Positions 1,376 through 37,916 of a DNA stretch of 64,000 nt are shown piece by piece. The stretch spans positions 144,814,057 through 144,878,056 of the forward strand of contig NC_062219.1 of the NCBI RefSeq assembly GCF_902686445.1. The letters are read 5' to 3'. The stretch is from Sciurus carolinensis. Its lineage: Eukaryota > Chordata > Mammalia > Rodentia > Sciuridae. The translations under genes were made by a program, and so were the position numbers. The first letter of the stretch is position 1; each line of letters starts with the position of its first letter. Below the pieces are notes generated by a model that was not told where the DNA came from, searched no databases, and saw nothing but the letters and a program-made list of their open reading frames with translations.

Positions 1376-3974
1376 TCTCCAAATCACAGTGGATGATTTA
1401 TGGATTCAAACTCTACTTTTTATTAGATTATTTGTGTATTTAAATTCTACTTATTTCAACCAAATGTCTGGTTAAAATATTAAAAAAAAAAACCCAGCTA
1501 CATTGGTCTGACATCAATGGAATCAAAACACATTCAAATAGTTTGCATTGGTCTTCTCCCTATAGGTGATCATGCTGACATTCCTATAAATTTTTGCCTT
1601 ACCAAGGGGGAAATCTGGGATCACGTGCCATGCAACATATTGACACTTAAACTAGAATCCCTCACAGCTTCAGTCGTAATAAATTCAACATATCCTGCAA
1701 GACTTGGGAGTAATGTACACTTGGTATATTTTTACCTCTAAAACATGTGAATAAACAAGTGTCCTTGTAAATAAGAAGTTGACTTCTGAGTTTTTTTTTT
1801 TTTCATGAAAATTCATATTAGCAAACACATTTTCTCCATTACATTTAAAAATGAATATGCATAATTTTTCTACTTGTTGCCCTACCAATTTGTGTGGTCT
1901 GCAAAGAAGATGCAAGGTCAGGATAAAATAAGAAGCCAAAATAACTTTTTTTGGCACTCTTGCACGGGAGCATATGTATTCTGGGGTACTTATACTCCTG
2001 TGCTTGCTGAGTGTACCCCAGATCATATCTCCAATTCTGCACCAAATGGACTTCTCAGCAGCCTTTTCCCTTCGCATTCATTGCCTCTGACAGATCTGTC
2101 CCCAGCTGGTGTTGCCTTCTCCCTGTGGTGTATGGAGATCATTAATCTGGCATGTTCTCTTACTCTGAGTTTTTTTTTCCCCCTTTACTGAGATTTTAAA
2201 ACAGATTGTGCCTATTTCTATTACCCTTTAAGAGATTTGTCATGTGTCCCCTTTTAATCAGGCTGTGTAAAAATCAATTGCTTGAATGTAGCTGGGGTCC
2301 CAGGCCCTAGTTCTGCTGCCAAGGTGGGAGCCTTAATTTTGTCCTGCTTCCCTATGGCAAAACCAGAGCGAGGACATCGCCAATAGAAGGATTAATTCTG
2401 TAGCATCTGAAGTGATGTGTTGGAACCATTCTGATTAGTGGTTCTCCTCCAGGGCTGGTGAAGTCACTTTGTCTTGTGTTCATAGGAAGCTGGAACTCTC
2501 ACCCAAACCAACTGCCAACAGTGACCCACAATGCAATTCCAGAAGGCCCGCGGGCTACTGTGGATCCCCCTGTAGTTACACTTTGAAATGGACAGTTCTC
2601 TAGGCTCTGGAGAGGGAAGGGATTGTGTCCACACAAACAGAACAGAGAAGAGCAACAGAGTCACCTAGCGAATGTTGAGAGGTGTCTGTAACTGCCAAAG
2701 CAAAAGATGGGACGCACACCCCCACAATACACCTCAGTCGCATGCGCACTCCCTCCTCAGTGGTCAGTGACTCCTTTCTTCTGGGATGCCCATTCTTGCA
2801 TCCAGTTTGCATTTTCTCTAGTCTCACCTGGTGTCATTTTTCAACAGTGGCCGAGGTCACTGCTCACGGAATGCCTATACTGCCCCTGCCCCACAGTCAG
2901 GGAAAGCAAGGGAAGTTAGAGGAAGACCTGTGGGGGCTCCCGCTTGGTCCTCTCTGGAAACCCCGCTCTTCCCTGCTTCACTCACCCAGAGCCTGTGAAG
3001 GAGGAGGGGACCCCCAGTACTCCTTCTGCCAGCACCCTTGTGCCCCCATCTGATGCAGATTAGGAGCTGCTTCACCGTGAACTGGCCCCTGTGCTCCCGT
3101 GAGACCCTGGGCTTACTCTCCGGGTCACAGCTCACAGCTCATTCTTATTCCTTCCTTTCTTCTTTTGGGTTTATTTGGCAACTCTGTCAACTTGCAGTAA
3201 CCATCTTGGCTCTGTTCTAGCTGGACGTTCAGGTCATCCTTCTGGTTGTGCTTTGTCCCCAGTCCCTTCCAAACTGGGTCTTTCCCTTCCTGCGTTATTT
3301 TGACCAGACTCTACCCCAACCTTGGAAATGGACAGTGGGCCCAATCAATATGGCGATCAACAACAGAACGTCCATGATTAGAAAAGAACTTGATGGTCAG
3401 TGGGAAGGAGTGTGACTGTTGGTCTCTACATGCTTTTTAAATATTATTCTTATCCATAAAGGCGATGATAAACACAGGTAGCTGCTGTGTTCAAAGGCAT
3501 CTGTGTTTTAACTGTGGCAGGGATTTCTCTCTGAGTTGGGGGCGCTGAGGCAGGGAGAGAGAAAAGTTTTGATCTTGATTTCTGAGCTATGGGGGAGCAG
3601 TTGAGCCTGTGGAGGTGGCCAGAGCTCCTGCAGGGTATAATAAGCTCTGCCAGGTGCTGGGAAAAGTGTCATGGACCAGGGATATAATGGAGGACCGAAT
3701 ACACAAGCAGCCTGTGTTCAGAGGGCTCGCGTGGCAGTAGGAGAGGAAAGAAGAAAGAATAAAGAACAGAAGGTTCGGCTGATCTGCGGCAGGGACTGTC
3801 CTCCCAGGAGGGACCCTGATTGGTTCCCTTTCTATCTGGACTCTCTCCCTTCCAGAAGTTCCACACCCAGTGGAACCTTCAAGTTTTTCTCACCATTAGT
3901 CATACCCTGTTCGTAGAAGCCCACCAGGATGCTGTCACTCATTTCCCTTGTCTATCAAATGCATGGTTGGACTT
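1376..3974. other. Unassigned sequence
   Basis: A 2.6-kb stretch with ordinary composition, turning more GC-rich from about 2440 to 3150. It has an A run near 1484 and a T run near 1792-1804. The open frames here overlap in several phases and have no family motifs. I see no tRNA, snRNA, CpG island or recognisable transposon. Confidence 0.4.
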
Positions 3975-12099: not shown

Positions 12100-12115
12100 A
12101 AAGAACGTTTGCTGA

Positions 12116-13031
12116 TGAAACTAAACTCAAAATGGATTAAGGACCTCGGAATCAGACCAGAGACCTTGCATCTTATAGAAGAAAAAGTAGGTCCAGATCT
12201 TCAACATGTCGGCTTAGGATCAGACTTCCTCAACAGGACTCCCATAGCATAAGAAATAAAAGCAAGAATCAATAACTAAAAAGCTTTCTCTCAGCAAAGG
12301 AAACTATCAGCAATGTGAAGAAAGAGCCTACAGAGTGGGAGAAAATCTTTGCCAATCATACTTCAGATAGAGCACTAATCTCCAGAATCTATAAAGAACT
12401 CAAAAAACTCTACACCAAGAATGTAAATAATCCAATCAACAAATGGGCTAAAGAAATGAATAGACACTTCACAGAAGAAGATCTACAAGCAATCAACAAA
12501 CATATGGAAAAATGTTCAACATCTCTAGTAATAAGAGAAATGCAAATCAAAACTACCCTAAGATTCCATCTCACCCCAATTAGAATGGCGATTATCAAGA
12601 ATACAAGCAACAATAGGTGTTGGAGAGGATGTGGGGAGAAGGGTACACTCATGCATTGCTGGTGGGGCTACAAATTAGTGCAGCCACTCTGGAAAGCAGT
12701 GTGGAGACTCCTTAGAAAACTTGGAATGGAACCACCATTTGACCCAGCTATCCCACTCCTTGGCCTATACCCAAAGGACTTAAAATCAGCATATTACAGA
12801 GATACAGCCACATCAATGTTCATAGCTGCTTAGTTCACAATAGCCAGATTGTGGAACCAACCTAGATGTCCTTCAATTGATGAATGGATAAAGAAACTGT
12901 GGTATATATATACAATGGAATATTACTCAGCCATAAAGAATGATAAAATTATGGCATTTGCAGGCAAATGGATGAAACTGGAGAATATCATGCTAAGTGA
13001 AATAAGCCAATCTCAAAAAACCAAAGGATGA
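12116..13031 (+). pseudogene. L1 ORF2 C-terminal remnant
   Basis: Encodes the far C-terminal region of L1 ORF2p, including [34 protein letters not shown] and, after one stop, LWYIYTMEYYSAIKNDKIM. Upstream codons are broken by stops and a small deletion near 12248-12290. Downstream the only break is a TAG at 12831-12833 where the chimera copy at 37.7 kb has a Gln codon, after which the same frame resumes to 13031. Endonuclease and reverse-transcriptase domains are absent, so the copy has no activity. Confidence 0.9.
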
Positions 13032-13304
13032 ATGATATCACTGATAAGTGGATGATGACACATAATGGGGGGTGGGAGGGGTTAGTGTTAGGGTTAGAGT
13101 TAGGGTTAGGGAGGGGGGCAAGAATGGAGGAAGGAAGGACTGTATAGAGGGAAAAGAGGGGTGGGAGGGGTGGGGGGAAGGGAAAAAATAACAGAATGAA
13201 TCAAACATTACCCTATATAAATTTATGATTACACAAATGGTACGCCTTTACGCCGTGTACAAACAGAGAAACAACATGTATCCCATTTGTTTACAATAAA
13301 AAAA
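12116..13304 (+). mobile_element. 5'-truncated L1 with 16-bp target duplication
   Basis: aaagaacgtttgctga at 12100-12115 recurs with one change at 13305-13320 and brackets the element. It contains the end of ORF2, a 3' UTR with a G-rich tract holding TTAGGG-like units (13081-13111), and the terminal phrase acaacatgtatcccatttgt followed by an A run. The 3' UTR end matches the L1 part of the chimera at 37192-37798, so both belong to one squirrel L1 lineage. It lacks the 5' UTR, ORF1 and most of ORF2. Confidence 0.9.
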
Positions 13305-13403
13305 AAAGAACGTGTGCTGAGCCCAGCTGCCACCCCCCACTGTACCCCAAACTTAGTTTATGCTCGGAACCTTTCTGTGCTGTTTCCGTCTTGGCGGAGA
13401 TTG

Positions 13404-14038
13404 TGTAACAAGGTCCACTTTATGCTTTGAATGCAGCCCTTATTGCTCTGCCACCGCGACTTAATAATGTCATTTTTTTTTTTACTGCAACTTATTTTTA
13501 AAATGGACATGTGGGGGCTGGGGAGATAGCTCAGTCGGTAGAGTGCTTGCCTTATAAGCACAAAGCCCTGGGTTCGATCCCCAGCACCCCAAAAAATAAA
13601 ATAAAATAAAATAAAATGAACATGTGTCTCTCTTCCTCTCTCCCTGCTCCTTCTAGTCTCTCCCCCTCCCTAATCTCAGGGGACACAGGGTCACCTTCCT
13701 TCCCCATCCTAGGCAGAGTTATCTGTCCCTGAGTATGTACCCAACCACAGGAATGAAGGACTCCAGACTTTGGGGATGGCACCCGAAGATCTCAGAAATG
13801 ACTGTCTCCCAAATGAACAAGTGAATTACAACTCCAGACAGAGAACACATGGAATGGAGCCCTTGAGTCACCTCTTTAAAAGCCCTGTTCCTGCTGATGG
13901 GCAGAATCTCAGCCTCTGGGACAGGAGTCCCCTGTGTTTCTCCTTTGCTAACAAAGCAGTGACCTTTTTCCTTTTTCTCAAAACTGTGTCCTTGTTATTG
14001 GATTGGCATTGGGGACAAGGATCAAGTTTTTGGCAGCA
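13404..14038 (+). mobile_element. LTR, family A copy 3, carrying an ID element
   Basis: Starts tgtaacaaggtcc and ends tggcagca. It matches copies 1 and 2 and is lengthened by an ID insertion (13514-13612) and by a local expansion around 13459-13500 in which gcgacttaat and gcaacttatt appear as paired, related words separated by a T run. The flanks attg and gttt do not match. TATA-like tctttaaaagccc lies near 13873-13885. Confidence 0.8.
13514..13612 (+). mobile_element. ID element (tRNA-Ala-like SINE), young
   Basis: Begins ggggctggggagatagctca, with an A box (tagctcagtcggtagagtgc) and B box (gggttcgatccccagc), and ends in an aaaat repeat tail. aaaatggacatgtg (13500-13513) recurs with one change at 13613-13626, so the insertion into LTR family A is directly visible. 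It is a retroposon derived from BC1/tRNA-Ala-like RNA and not a tRNA gene. Confidence 0.92.
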
Positions 14039-36975: not shown

Positions 36976-37441
36976 AATAAATAGATAAGTTATGAATGAA
37001 TGAATAAAAGGAGCATTAAGGTAGGGATCGTGGCTCTTTATTTTTTTATTTTTATTTTTTATGGTTTTATTACTTTTATTTGTTTTCCATAACAAATATC
37101 TCTAGTGCACGAAAGGTCAGGGATCATGAAACTGGTCGTGTCATTTACAAAACTTGTGTGATGCATTGGTTGCTGGTCTCCCAGTTCACTCTTTTTTTTT
37201 TTTATTGTAAACAAATGGGATACATGTTGTTTCTCTGTTTGTACATGGAGTATAGGCATACCATTTGTGTAATCATAAATTTACATAGGGTAATGTTGTT
37301 TGATTCATTCTGTTATTTATCCCCTTCCCCCACACCACCCACCCCTCTTTTCCCTCTATACAGTCCTTCCTTCCTCCATTCTTGCCCCCCTCCCTAACCC
37401 TAACTCTAACCCTAACCCCTCCCATCCCCCATTATGTGTCA

Positions 37442-37798
37442 TCATCCGCTTATCAGAGAGATCATTTGACCTTTGTTTTTTTGAGATTGGCTTATATCAC
37501 TTACCATGATATTCTCTAATTTCATCCATTTGCCTGCAAATCCCATAATTTTATCATTCCTTATGGCTGAGTAATATTCCATTGTATATATATACCACAG
37601 TTTCTTTATCCATTCATCAATTGAAGGACATCTAGGTTGGTTCCACAGTCTGGCTATTGTGAATTGAGTAGCTATGAACATTGATGTGGCTGTATCTCTG
37701 TAGTATGCTGATTTTAAGTCCTTTGGGTGTAGGCCGAGGAGTGGGATAGCTGGGTCAAATGGTGGGTCCATTCCAAGTTTTCTAAGGAATCTCCACAC
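37442..37798 (-). pseudogene. L1 ORF2 C-terminal remnant in the chimera
   Basis: Encodes the last segment of L1 ORF2p with motifs [26 protein letters not shown] and LWYIYTMEYYSAIRNDKIM. Unlike the copy at 12.1 kb it has no stop in the middle. The open frame happens to run on into the U6 part, giving a 160-codon reading frame (37442-37924). The U6-derived part is antigenic noise in coding terms, since U6 is non-coding, and no start context or promoter supports translation. Confidence 0.85.
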
Positions 37799-37863
37799 AA
37801 AAATATGGAACACTTCATGAATTTGCGTGTCATCCTTGCGTGGGGGCCATGCTAATCTTCTCG

Positions 37864-37899
<36 letters not shown>

Positions 37900-37905
37900 G
37901 AGCAC
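37799..37905 (-). pseudogene. RNU6: U6 spliceosomal snRNA retropseudogene
   Basis: All 107 positions of U6 are present, from gtgctcgcttcggcagcaca to gttccatattttt. From memory of mammalian U6 I count about five substitutions, including the catalytic-region ACAGAGA box reading ACCGAGA. It joins L1 sequence with no linker at 37798/37799. No upstream U6 promoter (distal or proximal sequence element, TATA at about -25) is seen beyond 37916, as expected for a copy made from RNA. It is not expected to be transcribed as functional U6. Confidence 0.95.
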
Positions 37906-37916
37906 GTGGCTCTTTA

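Follow-up and report, generated by a model that had tools for sequence, protein, structure and literature searches.

A U6-L1 chimeric retroposon in Sciurus carolinensis with a non-L1 3' segment that resembles a transduction

Architecture of the insertion

The window analysed here, a 64,000-nt stretch of the Sciurus carolinensis genome, carries on its minus strand an insertion (37041-37905) that consists, in order, of a U6 snRNA copy, the 3' end of an L1 element, a run of 12 A's (A12), a non-L1 segment (hereafter X) and an A-rich tail. The U6 copy is complete and forms the 5' end of the retroposon (37905-37799; Rfam RF00026). It is followed by a 5'-truncated L1 3' end, recognized by its similarity to another L1 of the window (37798-37204), by the A12 run that ends the L1 part and can be read directly from the sequence (37203-37192), and by the 131 nt of X (37191-37061), a candidate 3' transduction delimited by a genome match on C11. 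The insertion closes with a second, A-rich tail of 20 nt, AAAAAATAAAAATAAAAAAA (37060-37041), which is absent from C11. Two AATAAA polyadenylation signals within X, at 37080-37075 and 37071-37066, lie 14 and 5 nt before this tail, respectively, about the distance expected between a polyadenylation signal and the cleavage site.

The insertion is bracketed by a direct repeat, GTGGCTCTTTA, at 37030-37040 and 37906-37916, which matches perfectly over 11 bp and extends to 12 bp if the base in common with the first G of U6 is counted. The sense layout is TAAAGAGCCAC / U6 / L1 / A12 / X / tail / TAAAGAGCCAC, with one copy of the target-site duplication on the U6 side (5' of the retroposon; 37906-37916, minus strand) and the other on the tail side (3' of the retroposon; 37030-37040, minus strand). 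An earlier note on this DNA had described the same four parts in the same order, and all of them are present on the minus strand, within boundaries that it had placed exactly to the base. Its estimate of 110-150 bp for the transduced sequence is consistent with the 131 nt of X, and the interval that it had singled out for alignment (37041-37191) corresponds to X plus the second tail.

Evidence for a single insertion event

Direct repeats of 11 bp or more were found by chance in 3 of 20,000 random placements in the window (same spacing, slack of +/-3). When the flanks are rejoined, the pre-insertion site reads, in sense, GTCAATT/AAAGAGCCACGATCC, alternatively written GTCAATT/AAAGAGCCAC, and its other strand presents a CTTT/AATT nick that is L1-endonuclease-like, being close to the TT/AAAA motif given for this enzyme in the available text of PMC13174262. 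The same kind of test at the inner joints revealed no duplication comparable to the outer 11 bp. The second 5'-truncated L1 of the window (12100-13320, plus strand), which belongs to the same family, served as a control: it is an ordinary insertion whose single A-tail runs directly into its duplication, AAAGAACGTKTGCTGA (12100-12115 and 13305-13320, one mismatch), without any extra segment. Downstream of this control lies a further element on the plus strand (13503-13626), in which a tRNA-like sequence (Rfam tRNA, 45.9 bits) is followed by an (AAAAT)n tail and flanked by the similar words ATGGACATGTG and ATGAACATGTG; it looks like a tRNA-derived SINE.

A sequential origin has been proposed for tripartite elements in general (PMC4476161, in the portion available), and X could accordingly have been inserted first and U6-L1 later, exactly at the 5' end of X, or in the reverse order. 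The observation that could favor such a history is the word AAAGAG, which occurs at the A12/X joint as well as where the outer duplication begins (matches of at least 6 bp arise in 276 of 20,000 random placements at slack 3), and which makes this history very slightly more probable. Between the U6 flank and the beginning of X, 3 bp are shared at slack 3, and AAAGAG (6 bp) is reached at slack 6 only if the 4 bases before U6 are skipped. The GAG of this word is native to X, because the C11 copy has GAG too, and AAAGAG is read as a chance match to an A run. One copy of the outer 11-bp duplication flanks U6 and its partner lies beyond the tail of X, which also argues against two successive insertions, and this origin is scarcely credible.

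Collectively, U6, L1, X and the tail look like the product of one insertion event, as the earlier note had proposed: the support comes from the one outer 11-bp duplication and from the lack of a comparable one at the inner joints. The contrary pictures named there, in which X would belong to the flanking DNA or U6 and L1 would have separate duplications, fail insofar as they can be tested, because X maps elsewhere and the inner joints have no comparable duplication.

The U6 part and its joint to L1

The U6 copy (37905-37799) scores 106 bits and covers positions 1-105 of the 105-position Rfam model (RF00026; gathering score 44). It is 107 nt long and ends in 5 U's. It differs from the Rfam consensus within the ACAGAGA box and by UG>CA directly after GGCCCC. 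Because of these departures, one of them in an otherwise conserved box, the copy looks unconstrained and old. Full-length U6 and L1 lie within one duplication, which bears out the U6-L1 chimera that had been recognized beforehand.

U6 and L1 are joined bluntly and in the same sense, with the U-tract ATATTTTT set against L1 GTGTGGAGA. There is no base common to both at the joint, because an L1 relative has GCA before GTGTGGAGA. U6 and L1 RNAs are reportedly ligated to each other, as Moldovan is said to have described in 2019. Such a blunt junction with an intact U6 end is compatible with RNA ligation before integration as well as with a template switch, and both are named as routes to U6 joining in the available text of PMC13174262. 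The template jump that the earlier note had invoked here is one of two published options, and RNA ligation fits equally well.

The L1 part and its relatives

The L1 part (37798-37206) shows 93% identity over 600 aligned columns to the second L1 of the window (12699-13295). Telomere-like GGGTTA repeats occur in the G-rich stretch of the L1 3' UTR of both elements, at 37392-37419 (minus strand) and 13079-13111 (plus strand). Genome-wide, 39 other copies at 93-95% identity were found among the matches listed (40 of 9,409 candidates scored); these matches comprise 41 entries, namely the window itself, the 39 other copies and one short second piece. The nearest other copies are 95% identical, again among the matches listed (40/9,409). 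One listed match lies on C11, at 131.7 Mb, and none near C11:53.7 Mb. By identity alone, a parent might lie elsewhere among the candidates outside this listing, but according to the whole-genome search with X, X adjoins none of the listed L1 copies.

The divergence of the L1 part was assessed against 20 L1 copies from the genome together with the second L1 of the window. The insertion differs from the majority at 21 of 588 sites, the other copies at 4-21. Seven of its 21 variant sites are private, 6 are common to one copy and 8 to two to eight copies; since such subfamily variants blur the L1 estimate, no age in years is given. The divergence of X (6/~131, accumulated over two lineages; see below) and that of L1 (21/588) are compatible with one date.

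Segment X and its native copy on C11

A whole-genome search with X and its tail returned three candidates, all of which were scored (3/3): the window itself, a locus on another contig, C11, and a 44-bp A-rich stretch on C3. The C3 match (L003 1480-1640) was dropped as a copy of X, since it amounts to an A-rich stretch of this length that adjoins a tRNA-like element; short A-rich matches of this kind need not be further X copies. The C11 match (G000:C11:53704118-53704248, plus strand) is 95% identical (E 1.7e-50; query 1-132 of 152), and the part common to both loci differs by 6 substitutions and 1 indel, i.e., by ~5%. The C11 sequence begins at 53704118 with AAGAGTGAGC, contains both AATAAA signals and, after CCAT, runs on as TGTGAAATTACC without an A tail. 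Judged by these features of the sequence, the C11 locus is the native copy of X, in line with the earlier suggestion of a non-L1 3' part that brings its own polyadenylation signals and a second tail.

In the insertion, the A-run of L1 meets X directly; the C11 locus reads AAGAGTG at this joint, so that up to two of the 12 A's could belong to X. Within 3.1 kb of C11 sequence surrounding X, neither other similarity to the insertion nor any Rfam family at gathering thresholds was detected.

Origin of X: a lost parent and its alternatives

The most probable reading, to which a probability of roughly 0.76 is assigned, is one L1-mediated insertion that combines U6, L1 and a 3' transduction, and whose parent L1 once stood on C11 and is absent from the assembly. 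A sense L1 would formerly have been located at about C11:53704117, between TTAC and AAGAGTG. Its transcript would have passed the end of L1 and, as the start of the tail suggests, would have undergone cleavage and polyadenylation 131 nt beyond it, downstream of both AATAAA signals. U6 snRNA would have been joined to the 5'-truncated L1, either through prior ligation of the RNAs or through template switching. L1 endonuclease would then have nicked the target at CTTT/AATT, and U6-L1-A12-X-poly(A) would have been copied in with duplication of 11 bp, a course of events that the structure of the locus makes probable. Target-primed reverse transcription by L1 would thus have been the single driving event. 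The parent L1 was probably polymorphic, and was then either lost or absent from the sequenced chromosome, which would explain why the site is now empty and intact.

This reading draws on the one outer duplication, the L1-endonuclease-like site, the tail-less native X and the direct joint between the A-run and X. Transductions accompany 466 of 5,311 human polymorphic L1 insertions (8.8%), and 82.2% of human L1 transductions are 3' (PMC12350158, available portion). Because human L1 transductions are, on these figures, common and mostly 3', the transduction route has a high prior. At the break point on C11, the other strand reads CTCTT/G, a nick motif of a pyrimidine run followed by a purine, which gives weak to mild support to a former nick site: a motif defined after the fact (a pyrimidine before and three purines after AA) is found at 3,338 of the 44,534 AA positions on the two strands of 200 kb (7.5%).

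What counts against a lost parent is the lack of any L1 3' end at the presumed source: just upstream of X, this assembly of C11 reads CTTTCAGCTAGTTAC. A parent was sought, without success, in 250 kb of C11, of which 194 kb precede X. This upstream portion contains seven sense matches of at least 100 bp to the L1 part, with identities of 90.2, 72.7, 76.4, 85.8, 84.5, 75.8 and 80.5%; four of them extend to the L1 end (90.2, 72.7, 85.8 and 84.5%), and none of the seven is parent-like. Nor were other offspring of the C11 source found, the whole-genome search with X having returned the window, C11 and the 44-bp A-rich match. The expectation that the transduced tag would lead to the parent L1 is therefore not borne out, there being no L1 3' end directly before X on C11 and no parent-like match in 194 kb; read-through transcription of a source L1, also part of that expectation, is accordingly no more than the likeliest inference. 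Since the two copies of X differ by ~5%, the event would not be recent, and the parent would be either lost or a very old segregating allele; a difference of 5% would also mean that there was time enough for its complete loss.

The same upstream matches bear on a spliced 3' transduction, in which the source L1 would lie farther upstream on C11 and the end of its A-tail would have been spliced to an acceptor before X. In keeping with this, an AG stands exactly at the C11 joint (TTACAAG/AGTG), and X resembles a terminal exon with polyadenylation signals. The acceptor, AAG, is a poor one, however, with 55% pyrimidines in the 20 nt that lie 6-25 nt before the joint, and both CAG and TAG occur just upstream of the joint as well. 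Furthermore, GT follows the match end in 0 of the 7 sense L1 matches in the 194 kb upstream, the best of which is 90% identical. Splicing is accordingly considered very improbable.

A source L1 on C11 would not be needed at all if the insertion arose from three templates. L1 reverse transcriptase would have started on the poly(A) of a cellular RNA from C11, run off the 5' end of this RNA, switched to the poly(A) of an L1 RNA and gone on to U6, the last step being either a second jump or the consequence of an L1 RNA that had already been ligated to U6. This would account for a C11 locus without L1 before X, X being separate from L1 in the assembly, and for the overlap of two A's at the X/L1 joint. 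Double template switches have, moreover, been published for tripartite retroelements with duplications in a fungus and in mouse (PMC2104539, as far as its available text goes). Such an origin requires, however, that X existed as a short polyadenylated RNA or fragment, and the genome search returned no other retrocopy of X; the enzyme would also have had to switch to the poly(A) terminus of another RNA. In the elements from mouse and fungus, as described in that portion of the source, the extra RNA lies 5' of the LINE part and not 3' like X, and 3' transduction is by far the commoner reaction. An insertion from three templates is thus unlikely, and a 3' transduction from a lost parent is the reading adopted below.

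Comparison with known chimeric insertions

Like the U6/L1 chimeric retroposons described in the available parts of PMC13174262 and PMC4476161, the insertion has a full-length 5' U6 in sense with a 5'-truncated L1, an L1-endonuclease site and an outer target duplication; unlike them, it continues at its 3' end into an extra non-L1 segment with a second tail. With L1 3' transductions, as presented in the available parts of PMC12350158 and PMC4862182, it has in common the L1 end, the A run, a traceable X, a polyadenylation signal, a second tail and an outer duplication. It departs from them in that, in this assembly, its origin locus on C11 is not directly preceded by an L1 and in that U6 replaces the rest of L1 at the 5' end. 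The insertion works like a 3' transduction, with membership in that class resting on a parent that was probably lost. Three sequences inside one duplication are also known from the tripartite elements WEIRD-MgSINE-MGL of Magnaporthe, the rice blast fungus, and B2-U6-L1 of mouse, both with duplications (PMC2104539, available text); here, by contrast with what that text describes, the extra RNA lies 3' of L1 and has its own poly(A).

U6/L1 is the commonest L1 small-RNA chimera, making up 70.9% of 253 catalogued insertions of known types (PMC13174262, available portion). In the thirteen-lined ground squirrel, 6 of 29 U6 copies analysed are associated with repeats (PMC4476161, available portion). 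If the two reactions are independent and proceed at the human rates excerpted above, ~7% of U6/L1 chimeras would be expected, by our own arithmetic, to carry a 3' transduction, and for this reason the combination is expected at low frequency. To call it uncommon, as the earlier note did, is fair, with the qualification that coincidence alone would yield ~7% of U6/L1 chimeras at those human rates. In the literature covered (titles and the openings of abstracts, with subscription papers mostly outside), no report of U6/L1 combined with a 3' transduction was found. U6/L1 chimeras and 3' transductions are each well documented, and their combination is a neat but modest find.

Implications

No effect of the insertion on the host would be expected. 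The locus records two side reactions of L1 together, and its tag points to a site that is now without L1. If the transduction reading is true, the parent L1 was once active and has since disappeared while a copy of it survives, which would be a simple way for old transduction sources to become untraceable. If, instead, three templates were combined by jumping, calls of 3' transductions that lack a source can be false, and some source-less transductions would be template-jump products and not traces of lost L1 elements.
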